This document shows, piece by piece, positions 31,970-35,115 of a stretch of 35,115 nucleotides of DNA. The notes below the pieces were generated by a model, which saw nothing but the letters and a program-made list of their open reading frames with translations, was not told where the DNA came from and ran no database searches. Position 1 is the stretch's first letter, and every line of letters starts with the position of its first letter. A program made the position numbers and the translations under genes. The stretch is from a virus: positions 1 through 35,115 of the IMG/VR virus record IMGVR_UViG_3300042560_002509, one strand, 5' to 3'.

Positions 31970-32728
31970 TCAAATGATTCTTGTTTTTTCGTGCCCAACG
32001 CGAATGCGAGGATCGCACCAAATTTCAAATCCTGCTTCTTTTGCATCCAAACAGAATGATACATCTTCTCCACACATATCCTGAACTTCTCCAGATTCAA
32101 AAACTTGCATCTTAGGAGCAAACCAGGGATACTTCATTTCGGAATGTTCAAATACTCCGTGCTTAATCAAAAGCCAACCAAATCCTGCATAATCAACGGT
32201 AAATGGTTTACGACGCTTGCTGATGGACTCAACGGTTTCGTGATTCATAACTCCACCATTATTACGGAAATCATCCTCTTCCATCCAGTGTGCCACTGAG
32301 GTTGTATGTCCGTCTTCGGTTGCATACCATCCAGAAGCAATGTCCTTATCCATCAGAACAAGTTGCCAGAATTTTTCAGTATTAAAGACAATATCGGAGT
32401 CAATCCAAAGTTGATAATCATATTGAAGTTTTCCATCCCAAGGAATTTGGTCAGGTCCTCGAAGAACATTCGCACCTAAACATTTGCATCTTGCAAAGTT
32501 TACCATGGATGAATAGTCTTGTGAAATTTGAATACTTGCACCGGACTGTACTAAATCAAAGCACAGTTGAACGAAGCTCTTTAGATAGGTATAGGAGACT
32601 CCTCTTCCCGGAAGGCAAAAAACAATGGACTTTCCACGTACCATTTCCTTTGCAAGATCATAATCCCATTCTGCTTCTTTATTTGATGCCACTGGGGCAT
32701 TTGCTTTTACGGTAAATCCTTTAGCCAT
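31970..32728 (-). CDS. GT-A type glycosyltransferase
   Basis: This 252-aa protein has the layout of a family-2-like GT-A glycosyltransferase. An N-terminal nucleotide-binding strand is KSIVFCLPGRGVSYTY (33-48). The metal-binding DxD motif is in LWIDSDIVF (DSD 110-112). ASGWYATEDG (131-140) and VDYAGFGWLLIKHGVFE (178-194) form the acceptor region. GEDVSFCLDAKEAGFEIWCD (220-239) carries the ED.xF catalytic motif, and the end is RVGHEKT. It would transfer a sugar from a nucleotide donor to a phage or host acceptor, possibly a virion protein, DNA or cell-surface glycan. It has a good sigma70 promoter just upstream and heads the operon with the small proteins, the SET enzyme and speD. Confidence 0.9.
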   Translation of the reverse strand: MAKGFTVKANAPVASNKEAEWDYDLAKEMVRGKSIVFCLPGRGVSYTYLKSFVQLCFDLVQSGASIQISQDYSSMVNFARCKCLGANVLRGPDQIPWDGKLQYDYQLWIDSDIVFNTEKFWQLVLMDKDIASGWYATEDGHTTSVAHWMEEDDFRNNGGVMNHETVESISKRRKPFTVDYAGFGWLLIKHGVFEHSEMKYPWFAPKMQVFESGEVQDMCGEDVSFCLDAKEAGFEIWCDPRIRVGHEKTRII

Positions 32729-32750
32729 AATTGAAAGTAGTTACTTCATT

Positions 32751-32779
32751 ATCATACAATATTATGTAGCGATTGTCAA
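32751..32779 (-). promoter_or_regulatory. Strong sigma70 promoter (TTGACA-17-TATGAT) for the glycosyltransferase operon
   Basis: On the minus strand TTGACA (32779-32774), a 17-nt spacer and TATGAT (32756-32751) form a near-consensus host-type promoter. The -35 box overlaps the TGA of the AbrB-like gene. Initiation near 32745 leaves a leader of about 17 nt to the ATG at 32728. This is typical of phage early promoters. Confidence 0.8.
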
Positions 32780-32949
32780 TCTGTGCGTTCTGCGAGAATT
32801 ACTTCATCTCCTTCAAGAGTAAAGCATATTTGAGTGTCTTCATACCAAGAGAGTTCATTCATAATTTGCTCTGGAATTTTGATGAAGTATTCACCACTAA
32901 TTGGATCGACCTCTATGGGTTCAAAAATATCCCCGGAATTTTTTTTCAT
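32776..32949 (-). CDS. AbrB/MazE-like small DNA-binding protein
   Basis: The 57-aa protein (from ATG) has a SpoVT-AbrB swapped-hairpin look: EPIEVDPISGEYFIKIPEQI (the .IP.xI strand), NELSWYEDTQI, then CFTLEGDEVILAER, the second strand pair. Such proteins dimerise and bind DNA as transition-state regulators or antitoxins. A TTG at 32976 in the same frame would add MKRSLKIHR; a possible TATAAT box at 32978-32983 sits too close to it, so the ATG at 32949 is preferred, though not certain. No toxin gene is seen next to it. It precedes the early operon promoter and may control it (inference). Confidence 0.75.
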   Translation of the reverse strand: MKKNSGDIFEPIEVDPISGEYFIKIPEQIMNELSWYEDTQICFTLEGDEVILAERTD

Positions 32950-32977
32950 TCGATGTATTTTAAGCGACCTTTTCAAA

Positions 32978-32983
32978 ATTATA
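32978..32983 (-). promoter_or_regulatory. Possible -10 box for the AbrB-like gene
   Basis: The minus strand reads TATAAT, within TACTATATAATTTTG, but no good -35 box is found 16-18 nt upstream (CCTTAA region). In AT-rich DNA this may be chance. Confidence 0.3.
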
Positions 32984-33043
32984 TAGTATTCGGAAAATTT
33001 TTAAGGAGAGTGATATTTACAAGTCGATTTGGGTCGTTTATAG

Positions 33044-33094
33044 CTTAGGGTAGTTAGGCGTTTTTATACGGCGGCGACCGCCCCTAAGGACGCC
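33044..33094. repeat. Interleaved inverted repeats at the AT-rich/GC-rich boundary
   Basis: CTTAGGG (33044-33050) is inverted as CCCTAAG (33082-33088), GGCGT (33057-33061) as ACGCC (about 33090-33094), and a GGCGG-CGA-CCGCC hairpin lies between them (about 33069-33083). The pairs interleave rather than nest. The base composition changes here. It could be a structured RNA, a terminator without a T-run or a recombination scar. Confidence 0.4.
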
Positions 33095-33103
33095 CCAAGG
33101 GCA

Positions 33104-33146
33104 CTGCTCCCACACGAACGATCAGACTGCCCCCCCACGAACGAAC
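33104..33146. repeat. Two imperfect 20-bp direct repeats
   Basis: CTGCTCCCACACGAACGATC (33104-33123) and CTGCCCCCCCACGAACGAAC (33127-33146) agree at 17 of 20 positions, with a 23-bp period. They lie in the gap between the last small GC-rich ORF and the AbrB-like gene. This gap (about 32984-33167) holds no ORF that I support. The repeats could be a regulator-binding site, for example for the adjacent AbrB-like protein (inference). Confidence 0.5.
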
Positions 33147-33167
33147 GCAGGGGGCAGGGTGAGTCCC

Positions 33168-33374
33168 TCACTGAGTTGAGCGCCAGCCGCTGATGGGGCA
33201 CCGTGCCACGTCGGGGGCATGGGTCTCAGAGAATTGAGCGGCAAGCACGGTAGCAGGCAGACCCCAGTGAATGTAAGCGGAAGGGCGGGAACCGTTCTTC
33301 AGTTGATCGGCACGGGAGATCCACTTGATTTGGCGGGTCTGCAGATCGGAGCACTGAGCGAGGGGCCAGAGCAT
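33168..33374 (-). CDS. 68-aa hypothetical protein, last ORF of the GC-rich array
   Basis: Starting at the ATG 27 nt after the -10 box at 33401-33406 the protein begins MLWPLAQCSDLQTRQIKWIS and ends CPISGWRSTQ. It has several Trp, Gln and Cys residues and no membrane segment. I do not recognise the family. The frame is open upstream to 33443, but that extension crosses the promoter and the end of the preceding gene. Support comes from the promoter spacing it shares with its neighbours. Confidence 0.5.
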   Translation of the reverse strand: MLWPLAQCSDLQTRQIKWISRADQLKNGSRPSAYIHWGLPATVLAAQFSETHAPDVARCPISGWRSTQ

Positions 33375-33400
33375 GAGCGGGGGGGGTTGAGAACGAATGA

Positions 33401-33418
33401 ATTGTAGCACGGATGGGG
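33401..33418 (-). promoter_or_regulatory. Promoter cassette copy 1 (TACAAT) for the 68-aa ORF
   Basis: The plus strand reads ATTGTAGCACGGATGGGG, so the minus strand has CCCCATCCGTGC followed by the -10 box TACAAT (33406-33401). The same 18 bp recur at 33690 and 34443. A small hairpin, GGGG-TACTGAT-CCCC (33437-33423), covers the stop codon of the preceding ORF. No clear -35 box. Confidence 0.6.
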
Positions 33419-33427
33419 CAGGGGGGA

Positions 33428-33661
33428 TCAGTACCCCAACCACTCCAGCAGTTCGCCGCAGTCGATTCGCTCATCCTGCAGGGGTCCGTAGGTTGCCCAG
33501 AACTCAGAGCCCAGGGAGTGCATCTCTGCTGCCTCCACGGCAATGTGCCACTCAACGCAATCGTCAAAGGGATTGGAGCAATCCCAGAGGATGTCCTCAA
33601 AGGTGGTGCCGGGGGCGTACACGTTGAGGCAGTCGCGGAGGGCAGGGAGGGTGGCGGTCAT
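33428..33661 (-). CDS. 77-aa acidic hypothetical protein
   Basis: The protein begins MTATLPALRDCLNVYAPGTT and contains FEDILWDCSNPFDDCVEWHI, then AAEMHSLGSEFWATYGPLQD, and ends CGELLEWLGY. It is acidic and rich in Trp and Cys (four Cys). No catalytic motif is recognised. The ATG follows a TACAAT box (33690-33695) by 28 nt, matching the other units. GC-rich codons contrast with the AT-rich phage genes to the left. Confidence 0.6.
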   Translation of the reverse strand: MTATLPALRDCLNVYAPGTTFEDILWDCSNPFDDCVEWHIAVEAAEMHSLGSEFWATYGPLQDERIDCGELLEWLGY

Positions 33662-33687
33662 CGGATCGGGTGTCGGTGGAACTGAGA

Positions 33688-33707
33688 GAATTGTAGCACG
33701 GATGGGG
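33688..33707 (-). promoter_or_regulatory. Promoter cassette copy 2 (TACAAT) for the 77-aa ORF
   Basis: The plus strand GAATTGTAGCACGGATGGGG gives TACAAT on the minus strand at 33695-33690. The leader continues TCTCTCAGTTC, which is also found after copy 3. There is no recognisable -35 box, since the upstream sequence is a G/C-run hairpin. Confidence 0.6.
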
Positions 33708-33726
33708 GGGGGAGGGATCCCCCCCC
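33704..33726 (-). terminator. Strong GC hairpin between two ORFs of the array
   Basis: On the minus strand eight G pair with eight C around the loop ATCCCT. It starts about 10 nt after the TGA of the 70-aa ORF and ends just before the TACAAT box of the next unit. There is no U-run, so it is only terminator-like; it could also stabilise the upstream mRNA's 3' end. Confidence 0.45.
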
Positions 33727-33736
33727 TTAAGCATGA

Positions 33737-33949
33737 TCAGGCAGTGATCAATTCCACCCAGTAAGCGGTCGGGTATCCAGGCTCCCGCACGGGAATGCTG
33801 CGAACCAGTCCCTTTTTAACCAGGCTTCCAAGCACGCCTGCCGTGCTGAGCGTTTCATCAGCCAGCTCATGGAGCCACCCGCTTCCGGGGGCATCCATGC
33901 CTTCCTGGATGGCGTTGAACAGGTCTTGCTCTTTAGCGGTCAGGGTCAT
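33737..33949 (-). CDS. 70-aa probable winged-helix protein
   Basis: From ATG 25 nt after the TACAAT box, the protein reads MTLTAKEQDLFNAIQEGMDA, then GSGWLHELADETLSTAGVLG, then SLVKKGLVRSIPVREPGYPT and AYWVELITA. The order helix, helix, GVLGSLVKKGLV helix, then a beta wing ending in AYWVEL is the layout of a small winged helix-turn-helix, so DNA binding is plausible. I recall similar small proteins with GW.HE and AGVLGSLVKKGL from cyanophages or marine cyanobacteria, without a known role. The upstream in-frame extension to 34003 crosses the promoter and is rejected. Confidence 0.65.
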   Translation of the reverse strand: MTLTAKEQDLFNAIQEGMDAPGSGWLHELADETLSTAGVLGSLVKKGLVRSIPVREPGYPTAYWVELITA

Positions 33950-33958
33950 CGGGTGCGG

Positions 33959-33977
33959 TGCGGTGTGCTCTGGAATT
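33959..33977 (-). repeat. 19-bp promoter/leader repeat, copy 1
   Basis: TGCGGTGTGCTCTGGAATT occurs here and at 34189-34207. Each copy spans the end of the -10 box and the start of the leader of its gene, while the two genes are unrelated. Confidence 0.7.
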
Positions 33978-34003
33978 GTAGTCGGTTGAGGGGCAGGAGT
34001 CAA
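33975..34003 (-). promoter_or_regulatory. sigma70-type promoter (TTGACT-17-TACAAT) for the 70-aa ORF
   Basis: On the minus strand TTGACT (34003-33998), a 17-nt spacer and TACAAT (33980-33975) make the most complete promoter of the array. A perfect GGTTGA/TCAACC stem (33984-34005) spans the -35 box and spacer. The leader begins TCCAGAGCACACCGCA, shared with the next unit upstream. Confidence 0.7.
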
Positions 34004-34019
34004 CCCACCCCCCTGAGGG

Positions 34020-34178
34020 TCAATAGCGATCCATCAGAACGTGAAGGTCGCGCAGGGCAGTGATCTCAGAAGTATCGGTGCCGAGTGCCTCCAGCTGCCG
34101 GTAGCGGTGGGAAATGGCATCCTGCAGTGCCAGCAGTTGCAGCGGGGTCAGGTTGAGAACGACGGGGGTGATTTGCAT
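34020..34178 (-). CDS. 52-aa small helical hypothetical protein
   Basis: The protein is MQITPVVLNLTPLQLLALQD followed by AISHRYRQLEALGTDTSEIT and ALRDLHVLMDRY. It reads as two amphipathic helices with Leu spacing, so a helical hairpin or small dimer is likely. The ATG is 26 nt after a TAGAAT -10 box. The in-frame extension to 34247 would include the promoter and is rejected. No family recognised. Confidence 0.6.
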   Translation of the reverse strand: MQITPVVLNLTPLQLLALQDAISHRYRQLEALGTDTSEITALRDLHVLMDRY

Positions 34179-34188
34179 TGAGGTGCCT

Positions 34189-34207
34189 TGCGGTGTGCTC
34201 TGGAATT
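34189..34207 (-). repeat. 19-bp promoter/leader repeat, copy 2
   Basis: This is identical over 19 bp to 33959-33977; the similarity stops at the -10 box (TAGAAT here, TACAAT there) and before the ATG. Confidence 0.7.
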
Positions 34208-34234
34208 CTACAGGGTCAGGGTGCCAGGGGTCAA
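34205..34234 (-). promoter_or_regulatory. Promoter (TTGACC-18-TAGAAT) for the 52-aa ORF
   Basis: On the minus strand TTGACC (34234-34229), an 18-nt spacer and TAGAAT (34210-34205) are present. The -35 box overlaps the last codons and stop of the 60-aa gene. Confidence 0.6.
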
Positions 34235-34413
34235 CCCTCCCACTCATCCGATGGGGTCAGTGCCCATACCAGCGATTCCAGCTGGCAGGCGTAGATGCAC
34301 TCCTGCCCGTTATGGCGGACCTTCCAGGTCTGAGCGCCCGTGATGCAAGGGATGCGTTCGATCCGCTCCACCCCGTAGGGGGCAAGCATCACCATCGCTT
34401 CGGAGATCAGCAT
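34231..34413 (-). CDS. 60-aa hypothetical protein
   Basis: The protein begins MLISEAMVMLAPYGVERIER, continues IPCITGAQTWKVRHNGQECI and ends with YACQLESLVWALTPSDEWEG. TWKVRHNGQECIYA looks like a short beta hairpin followed by a helix, similar in scheme to EVRRNGHILGSY in the neighbouring 53-aa protein. The ATG comes 29 nt after TACAAT; the leader is a C-run (CCTCCT), the opposite of a Shine-Dalgarno site. Family unknown. Confidence 0.6.
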   Translation of the reverse strand: MLISEAMVMLAPYGVERIERIPCITGAQTWKVRHNGQECIYACQLESLVWALTPSDEWEG

Positions 34414-34442
34414 AGGAGGGGGGGGGGGTGTGAACTGAGAGT

Positions 34443-34460
34443 ATTGTAGCACGGATGGGG
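34443..34460 (-). promoter_or_regulatory. Promoter cassette copy 3 (TACAAT) for the 60-aa ORF
   Basis: The plus strand ATTGTAGCACGGATGGGG is identical to copies 1 and 2; the -10 box is 34448-34443. With the leader CTCTCAGTTC the similarity to copy 2 extends to about 28 bp. CTGACC about 15 nt upstream may act as a weak -35 box. Confidence 0.6.
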
Positions 34461-34480
34461 CAGGGTCAGCGCCCGTCCGT
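34451..34480 (-). terminator. Terminator-like hairpin overlapping promoter copy 3
   Basis: On the minus strand ACGGA and GGGC pair with GCCC and TCCGT, with small bulges. The stem sits between the 53-aa stop and the TACAAT box and covers part of the promoter cassette. No T-run follows. Confidence 0.4.
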
Positions 34481-34627
34481 GTAGGATCCGAGGATGTGCC
34501 CGTTGCGGCGCACCTCAGCATAACCATAGTCCTCTGAGAGCATCAGGCACAGATCCCATGCCTTTGCCTCATCATGGGTGCTCTCATTCTCAAAGGGGGC
34601 AGAGGGGACGTGAACTTCGTATCGCAT
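34466..34627 (-). CDS. 53-aa hypothetical protein (MRYE type)
   Basis: The protein is MRYEVHVPSAPFENESTHDE, then AKAWDLCLMLSEDYGYAEVR, then RNGHILGSYTDGR: strand, acidic loop, helix, then beta hairpin. The MRYE(V/I) start and a central E(A)K/E(A)E helix recall the 46-aa ORF at 34931, so the two may be distant relatives. The ATG is 22 nt after TACAAT, and the extension to 34693 crosses that promoter. No function recognised. Confidence 0.6.
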   Translation of the reverse strand: MRYEVHVPSAPFENESTHDEAKAWDLCLMLSEDYGYAEVRRNGHILGSYTDGR

Positions 34628-34649
34628 TGTGGTTGTCTGAACTGAGGTC

Positions 34650-34655
34650 ATTGTA
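34650..34655 (-). promoter_or_regulatory. -10 box (TACAAT) for the 53-aa ORF
   Basis: The minus strand reads CTCTACAATGACCTCAGTTC; the CTCAGTTC leader word is shared with copies 2 and 3 and appears as TTCAGTTC at 35103. TTTGCC or TTGCCC about 15-16 nt upstream is a weak -35 box. Confidence 0.55.
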
Positions 34656-34665
34656 GAGGCAAAGG

Positions 34666-34683
34666 GGAGGGGGCAAACCCTCC
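34666..34683 (-). terminator. GGAGGG/CCCTCC hairpin after the 46-aa MSRD ORF
   Basis: On the minus strand a 6-bp perfect GC stem, GGAGGG-TTTGCC-CCCTCC, begins 13 nt after the TGA at 34696 and ends about 10 nt before the next TACAAT box. No U-run follows, so termination is only likely, not certain. Confidence 0.45.
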
Positions 34684-34695
34684 GCTGTGCCACTA

Positions 34696-34836
34696 TCAGA
34701 ATTGGATTTCTTCCAGAGTCGGATCGGCGGCATTCAGTTCAGGTTCAGCAGGGCTGGCAATAGTCTCCAGAATTTGAAGAATTTGCTCACCATTGTTACC
34801 AGAACGAAGCAGTGAAATTGCAAGATCGCGGGACAT
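34696..34836 (-). CDS. 46-aa hypothetical protein (MSRDLAISLL type)
   Basis: The complement ORF gives MSRDLAISLLRSGNNGEQIL, then QILETIASPAEPELNAADPT and LEEIQF. It is a short amphipathic helix pair with an acidic tail. I recall very similar MSRDLAI.LLR.G..G.EILQIL peptides from cyanophages or marine picocyanobacteria, which supports a real gene and a cyanobacterial or cyanophage origin for this array. The ATG is only 12 nt after the TACAAT box, so the mRNA may be nearly leaderless. Function unknown. Confidence 0.65.
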   Translation of the reverse strand: MSRDLAISLLRSGNNGEQILQILETIASPAEPELNAADPTLEEIQF

Positions 34837-34848
34837 ATGAATTCAGGG

Positions 34849-34854
34849 ATTGTA
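34849..34854 (-). promoter_or_regulatory. -10 box (TACAAT) for the 46-aa MSRD ORF
   Basis: The minus strand reads AATCCTACAATCCCTGAATTC and then ATATG. No convincing -35 box is present. The spacer between this box and the previous stop (34931) holds no ORF. Confidence 0.5.
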
Positions 34855-34930
34855 GGATTGTTGGAGTGCCATCACCTCCCCCGTTCGGATGGCGTGTGGG
34901 CAGTCTTTAGGGCGCTGCCGTTCCCATCAC

Positions 34931-35071
34931 TCAGGGTGCCAAATGTGCAGGAGATCCACAGGAGCGATAGAAGGCAATCATTCGCTCCGCTTCTTCCAAC
35001 GTGCGGAAGAATTGTGATCGCCACTCACACTGATTGTAGGGTGTCTGATAGCGAATTTCGTAGCGCATCAT
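34931..35071 (-). CDS. 46-aa hypothetical protein (MMRYEIRY type)
   Basis: The ORF reads MMRYEIRYQTPYNQCEWRSQ, then FFRTLEEAERMIAFYRSCGS and PAHLAP. The pattern is strand, strand, then helix (LEEAERMIAFYRS) and a CGSPA end, typical of tiny beta-beta-alpha proteins. The start could be either of two adjacent ATGs (35071 or 35068). A TATAAT box lies 31 nt upstream. I recall similar EEAERM..FY.SCGSPA proteins from cyanophages, without a function. Confidence 0.6.
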   Translation of the reverse strand: MMRYEIRYQTPYNQCEWRSQFFRTLEEAERMIAFYRSCGSPAHLAP

Positions 35072-35102
35072 TGAAGTTCAGTGAGTTGATTGAACTGAAA
35101 GT

Positions 35103-35108
35103 ATTATA
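35103..35108 (-). promoter_or_regulatory. -10 box (TATAAT) for the 46-aa MMRYE ORF
   Basis: The minus strand reads CCCTATAATACTTTCAGTTC at the window's right edge. This is the only consensus TATAAT of the set; the leader again contains TCAGTTC. Its -35 region lies outside the window. Confidence 0.6.
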
Positions 35109-35115
35109 GGGCAGT

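Follow-up and report, generated by a model that had tools for sequence, protein, structure and literature searches.

The IMG/VR virus record IMGVR_UViG_3300042560_002509, analysed here over its 35,115 bases (the window), carries eight very small genes in a GC-rich stretch at positions 33168-35108, which raises the question why an AT-rich phage genome should hold a row of tiny genes that each follow a promoter-like box of their own. We put the probability at about 0.78 that the region is a promoter-bounded array of gene cassettes filling a slot for accessory genes, in which cassettes are swapped by way of the promoter and leader that they share, are transcribed early by the host polymerase and encode products that interact with the host or counter its defences. 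Judged by its sequence, the window is a fragment of a T4-like picocyanobacterial phage with relatives in the Kyanoviridae and akin to Synechococcus phage S-SRM01, the hosts being freshwater or brackish-water picocyanobacteria. This assignment follows from the baseplate wedge genes, encoded on the minus strand of the window together with other structural proteins, and from the alignment of the region beside the array with S-SRM01 (78.7% over 369 bases and 77.7% over 678 bases).

Each of the eight units, A to H, consists of a -10-like box of the form TAYAAT or TAGAAT, followed after 12-31 nucleotides (nt) by the ATG of an open reading frame (ORF) of 46-77 amino acids (aa). From A to H the distance between box and ATG is 31, 12, 22, 29, 26, 25, 28 and 26 nt, respectively. 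Family numbers refer to the comparison with related phages described below.

34931-35108, minus strand: unit A; TATAAT box 35103-35108, leader ACTTTCAGTTCA, ORF 34931-35071 (46 aa); family 4, 22 loci
34696-34854, minus strand: unit B; TACAAT box 34849-34854, ORF 34696-34836 (46 aa); family 15, 10 loci
34466-34655, minus strand: unit C; TACAAT box 34650-34655, ORF 34466-34627 (53 aa); phrog_17176, a family with no assigned function
34231-34448, minus strand: unit D; TACAAT box 34443-34448, ORF 34231-34413 (60 aa); family 10
34020-34210, minus strand: unit E; TAGAAT box 34205-34210 with TTGACC 18 nt upstream, ORF 34020-34178 (52 aa); family 19
33737-33980, minus strand: unit F; TACAAT box 33975-33980 with TTGACT 17 nt upstream within a 10-bp stem-loop, ORF 33737-33949 (70 aa)
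33428-33695, minus strand: unit G; TACAAT box 33690-33695, ORF 33428-33661 (77 aa); relatives encoded in 175 IMG/VR stretches
33168-33406, minus strand: unit H; TACAAT box 33401-33406, ORF 33168-33374 (68 aa); family 0, 54 loci
33399-33423, minus strand: promoter-spanning 25-bp repeat at the seam between G and H

This layout, in which every ORF is closed before the next promoter, had been the core of the original prediction, made from the letters of the DNA, and all ORFs, boxes and distances are as described there. Hereby, the eight units on the minus strand compare with a mean of 0.037 and a maximum of 2 in 2000 dinucleotide shuffles; the plus strand of the array has none, and elsewhere the window has at most one unit per 2 kb. 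That chance is an unlikely source of such regularity, as had been argued, is thus confirmed. GC-rich DNA does offer long open frames on both strands, which would favour reading the units as chance ORFs, but the shuffle test, the conservation of the families and their selection (see below) refute this reading, and we consider it practically negligible. The predicted step in composition is likewise real: GC rises from ~35% to 60%, and GC at third codon positions (GC3) is 0.15-0.32 in core genes, 0.67-0.80 in units C-H, 0.54 in A and 0.37 in B. An assembly chimera at this junction is excluded, since two separate contigs (L007 and L009; L numbers denote related viral loci) match positions 32401-35115 at 99.9% and have the identical junction. 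Beyond the end of the window the array continues with further units of ~45% GC in L004, L007 and L008.

How far does this arrangement extend to other phages? A 25-mer around one promoter matched eight further contigs, and the motif TAYAATNCTYTCAGTTCA, which spans promoter and leader, matched at least 120 viral stretches; the comparison took in ~100 related viral contigs, and figures for the motif set hold among the matches listed. At 248 of 252 leader-motif sites (130 loci) an ATG-started ORF follows 21-35 nt downstream, nearly always 21-31 nt, these ORFs having a median length of 62 aa and a local GC of mostly 55-61% between flanks of 30-45%. Because a motif search selects for its motif, loci were also collected independently by a tblastn-based search with protein G alone. 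Here, 56 of the 69 usable G homologues have a TA[CTG]AAT box, in every case with 21-29 nt between it and the ATG, as against 7.2% at shifted control positions, so that homologues with identical promoter placement, which the original prediction had named as support, do exist. Several of the remaining homologues have the one-base variants TATACT, TACACT or TAGACT, some keeping the same leader. Among the matches listed, a box-based rule recognised 495 units, which group by sequence into 77 families, 42 of these having three or more members; the counts are conditional on the box because the rule demands one. What stays constant is the -10 box and its spacing from the ATG, joined in 258 of the 495 units (about half) by a CAGTTC-type leader; in searchable form, the signature is TAYAAT-N-CTYTCAGTTCA with 21-32 nt from box to ATG. 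No Shine-Dalgarno site is recognisable in the leaders of the window, as had been noted, and even a 4-nt word of this kind occurs in only 39 of the 495 units of relatives.

The promoter and leader element is phage-specific, since a scan of 257 Gb of bacterial and archaeal genomes with a pattern nearly equivalent to TAYAATNCTYTCAGTTCA returned only 14 scattered matches, none of them cyanobacterial, where ~10 would be expected by chance (estimated from pattern length).

The place of the array in the genome is marked by two neighbouring genes:

32776-32976, minus strand: gene Z; 57 aa from the ATG at 32949 or 66 aa from an upstream TTG; marks the AT-rich border of the slot
31970-32728, minus strand: glycosyltransferase-like (GT) gene; 252 aa, phrog_1574; the other gene that recurs beside the array

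Of the 77 loci selected by G, 70 contain one or more of the core genes that adjoin the array in the window (Z, GT or baseplate genes). Of the 103 loci selected by the motif, 71 do, and most of the remaining ones are contigs that break off early or cover a different part of the early region. In 134 of 136 comparisons Z and GT share the strand of the unit closest to them. Since these genes accompany the array in most loci, the array sits, as far as such comparisons tell, at a fixed genomic place, with the H family (family 0) usually closest to the AT-rich core. Gene Z, the last gene on the AT-rich side (32776-32949), is likewise preceded by a TATAAT box, 28 nt from its ATG, and its relative in S-SRM01 is annotated as a DNA-binding domain-containing protein. 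In S-SRM01 (MW015081, 91.8-93.1 kb) the same slot beside Z and GT also holds small ORFs, whereas its GC is ~44% and its leader another; ahead of three of these ORFs stands a strong stem-loop (z -3.5 to -4.1), and after it a TACACT/TACATT-like box or a short leader of similar kind. None of the window families searched in this slot (C, G, H, D and A) matches there. Past unit H, positions 33064-33167 form a GC-rich tail in which no unit is recognisable and a 19-bp direct repeat occurs at 33103 and 33126. The tail may be a decayed cassette, because in other phages a further unit (family 5 or 16) occupies the corresponding place.

Within the slot, the predicted gain and loss of whole cassettes is seen directly among relatives. 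Unit I, a paralogue of H with 84 aa, stands between G and H in L004, L005, L006 and L008; unit F is missing as a whole from L005, L006 and L008; L008 lacks unit B and has a unit J; and unit C is present in the lineage of the window as divergent alleles. The 45 loci with four units beside Z/GT show 36 distinct four-cassette arrays, and in pairs with a GT protein at least 98% identical the array differs in 66%. On the alignments, units are gained, lost and reordered whole between phages with near-identical flanking genes. Units of the same family that have different upstream neighbours are highly similar over the box, the first 12 bases upstream of it and the leader, and fall to background identity (0.30-0.38) by 12-18 nt upstream of the box, while units with the same upstream neighbour keep an upstream identity of 0.5-0.6. 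It is this decay of similarity a short way (12-18 nt) ahead of the -10 box that identifies the promoter, on the aligned sequences, as the seam of cassette exchange. In line with this, the 25-bp promoter repeat of the G/H junction flanks unit I on both sides in L005, L006 and L008, as would be expected if unit I had been lost or gained by recombination between promoter copies.

Taken as a mechanism, a cassette would comprise a -10 box resembling that of host sigma70 promoters, followed by a short 5' leader and a single tiny ORF. Box and leader, common to unrelated cassettes, and in some of them a G+C-rich upstream stem-loop, would provide the homology by which co-infecting or replicating phage genomes, through homologous or short-homology recombination, swap, delete or duplicate a cassette, an exchange that would leave its expression undisturbed. 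Most likely the unmodified host RNA polymerase would transcribe the cassettes, probably each on its own, straight after infection. Cyanomyoviruses have no homologues of alt, modA, motA and asiA, and their early genes are thought to use the host sigma70 (PMC2984593). The products would be small proteins that interact with the host or counter its defences.

Selection on these proteins is mostly purifying, as the original prediction required: the median ratio of nonsynonymous to synonymous substitution (dN/dS, Nei-Gojobori) over 30 families is 0.36, with 73% of the families below 0.5, values that are rough since in many pairs synonymous substitution approaches saturation. So far as the sequence shows, none of the three outcomes named beforehand as contradicting the prediction (no homologues, no purifying selection, one long message only) is observed. 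Families whose synonymous divergence is almost saturated retain a GC3 of 0.66-0.80, and the high-GC composition must therefore be old. As a speculation, we favour the idea that selection could maintain it for translation with host tRNAs when infection begins. The search against phage proteins that had been proposed was answered in part: unit C has relatives in S-CREM1, P-RSM1 and S-B68, while a comparison with 50,697 phage records yielded nothing for H, G, D and A, and in this respect the array resembles an ORFanage, in which ORFs mostly lack relatives in known phages. Most products match no family of known function; in other arrays we found a weakly metallopeptidase-like protein, one DUF7249 member and a sub-threshold HicA-like protein. 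The last belongs to family 27 (L040 and other loci outside the window; 73 aa, dN/dS 0.08), possibly a toxin-antitoxin or mimic gene within the cassette pool, and defence libraries gave nothing beyond this weak HicA-like match. The predicted structure of G is a small helical fold (predicted local distance difference test, pLDDT, of 84) and that of H has a pLDDT of 73; neither has a significant match in the PDB. Proteins of the H/I family (family 0) look mosaic, with N- and C-terminal blocks apparently recombined between members, and have a high dN/dS of 0.64, hinting that the family may be diversifying against a variable target. From size, likely timing and turnover, a role of the products in host takeover or counter-defence appears plausible, and T4 offers a documented parallel in its accessory anti-toxin genes, which undergo amplification between short repeats (PMC9391042).

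Several observations weigh against the reading as a cassette array. A TTG at the -35 position with a 17-18 nt spacer is found in ~18% of units, so that only about a fifth have a clear -35 element. Upstream stems of at least 7 bp occur in only 36% of units as against 16% in shuffles; the mean folding z is -0.87 versus -0.22 in ORF controls, and the stems often end 6-10 nt before the box and sometimes enclose the -35 position. A scan for intrinsic terminators found none and no T-tract, and, given that stems are this infrequent, read-through transcripts are possible. Promoters within one genome are only slightly more alike than permuted ones (0.435 versus 0.424), which gives little sign of concerted similarity; several deletion junctions show no long perfect repeat, for which short-homology or older events are needed in addition; and many IMG/VR contigs may share related samples, so that the loci are not fully independent.

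Among the alternatives, the strongest, which we hold to be unlikely but worth serious weight, is an ordinary T4-type hyperplastic region or ORFanage, in which the promoters are alike because they serve a common function and turnover stems from illegitimate recombination or packaging errors. Phage S-PM2, with its host-like early promoter and gene loss by proposed mispackaging (PMC4503421), sets a precedent, and the junctions without perfect repeats would fit as well. Against it speak breakpoints that cluster just upstream of the -10 box, the G/H junction being itself a promoter repeat, and a density of one gene per promoter with a shared leader that exceeds the description of S-PM2. A dedicated site-specific or integron-like system acting on box and leader would account for the fixed place beside Z, the conserved core of ~18 nt and the exchange of whole cassettes. 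Yet leaders vary (TCCAGAGC, TCAGAAGT and others), the edge of homology is gradual with no fixed point, no recombinase is annotated among the slot neighbours in S-SRM01 and DSL-LC03 (no dedicated model search was made), and T4-type homologous recombination suffices, which makes such a system improbable. We regard as about equally improbable, or slightly more so, that the block was recently acquired with its regulatory DNA from a GC-rich picocyanobacterial host or plasmid. The sharp GC step and the high GC3 of most units invite this explanation, but promoter and leader are absent from cyanobacterial genomes in the 257-Gb scan, the slot is identical in most phages in which the flank is present, and the high GC3 is old.

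How does the cassette array relate to known systems? Promoter early stem loops (PeSLs) of T4-type phages were reportedly described by Arbiol in 2010 and Comeau in 2014. PeSLs are dense intergenic promoter elements between tiny accessory ORFs of T4-like phages, where whole genes are exchanged, and the array agrees in these respects: the genome is T4-like by its baseplate wedge genes and its synteny with S-SRM01 (Kyanoviridae), the promoter element is repeated between many small ORFs, breakpoints lie at the promoter, and in some units a stem-loop overlaps it. The array differs in that it has a host-like TAYAAT box with the cyanophage leader CTYTCAGTTCA; among its boxes (TACAAT, TAGAAT, TATAAT) no T4-type early promoter was found. 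Only about one unit in three has the stem-loop, which lacks a T-tract, and the array is strictly one ORF per promoter and strongly GC-rich. By analogy, the array would work like PeSL-mediated gene shuffling, its membership in the class being incomplete because the promoter is host-like and the scan for terminators found none joined to it. Integron cassettes resemble it as single-gene units exchanged at one fixed site, whereas each unit of the array has its own promoter and no attC-like site or integrase was seen (no dedicated search was made). The S-PM2 ORFanage resembles the array in that tiny orphan ORFs, dispensable and variable, stand clustered in the genome of a T4-like cyanophage (PMC4503421, PMC2984593), but it has few PeSL-like elements, while promoter-bounded exchange is directly seen in the array. 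A review holds that an ORFanage is no general feature of cyanomyoviruses (PMC2984593).

Between units A and B lies a further, non-coding feature:

34901-34928, minus strand: ultra-conserved non-coding element, GGGAACGGCAGCGCCCTAAAGACTG

In the form GGGAACGGCAGCGCCCTAAAGACT(C/G)C it is nearly invariant in 77 IMG/VR stretches (e.g. L003, L004, L007, L022, L028, L045, L074, L084 and L281), and among isolates it is exact in S-RSM4 and DSL-LC03 and has 2-3 mismatches in S-CAM4 and ACG-2014. It lies mostly 22-51 nt upstream of an ATG in front of several unrelated genes, the leaders of the unit B family in other phages holding it as a 24-nt element. Since it often directly follows a -10-like box, it would fall close to the mRNA 5' end; some of its copies stand just before a promoter. 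Rfam gave no match at the gathering score and no clear fold was found; the single weak match, SNORD41, was dismissed as noise. The literature searched contained no mention of the sequence, which looks like a hitherto undescribed 5'-leader signal of cyanophages. Other leaders recur elsewhere: after a TATAAT/TACAAT-like box, P-RSM1 (L128) and S-B68 (L145) have repeated leaders of their own, TATAATAAGTACATAACAAACAAA and TAYAATTAGAGNAYANRCAAAGG, respectively, S-B68 with three copies of a similar composite, and S-SRM01 (L285) has a stem-loop with TACACT, suggesting that each phage group has its own cassette signature.

In conclusion, the array provides direct comparative evidence, from a group of environmental phages, for an exchange of single-gene cassettes at their promoters. 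It extends the PeSL idea to cyanophages, where the authors of the S-PM2 study found few PeSLs and judged shuffling by them unlikely (PMC4503421). The ~77 small families, together with the signature, offer a means of collecting and screening candidate anti-defence or host-takeover proteins of picocyanobacterial phages. More tentatively, and with clearly less confidence than in the array itself, freshwater and brackish cyanomyoviruses may possess a fixed plug-in slot in which promoters serve as seams and a common pool of at least 77 tiny GC-rich families, their GC maintained by way of host tRNAs, is shuffled in the form of self-expressing cassettes on a nearly population time scale. If this is true, the counter-defence and takeover repertoire of these phages would be modular like an integron, with no need for an integrase.

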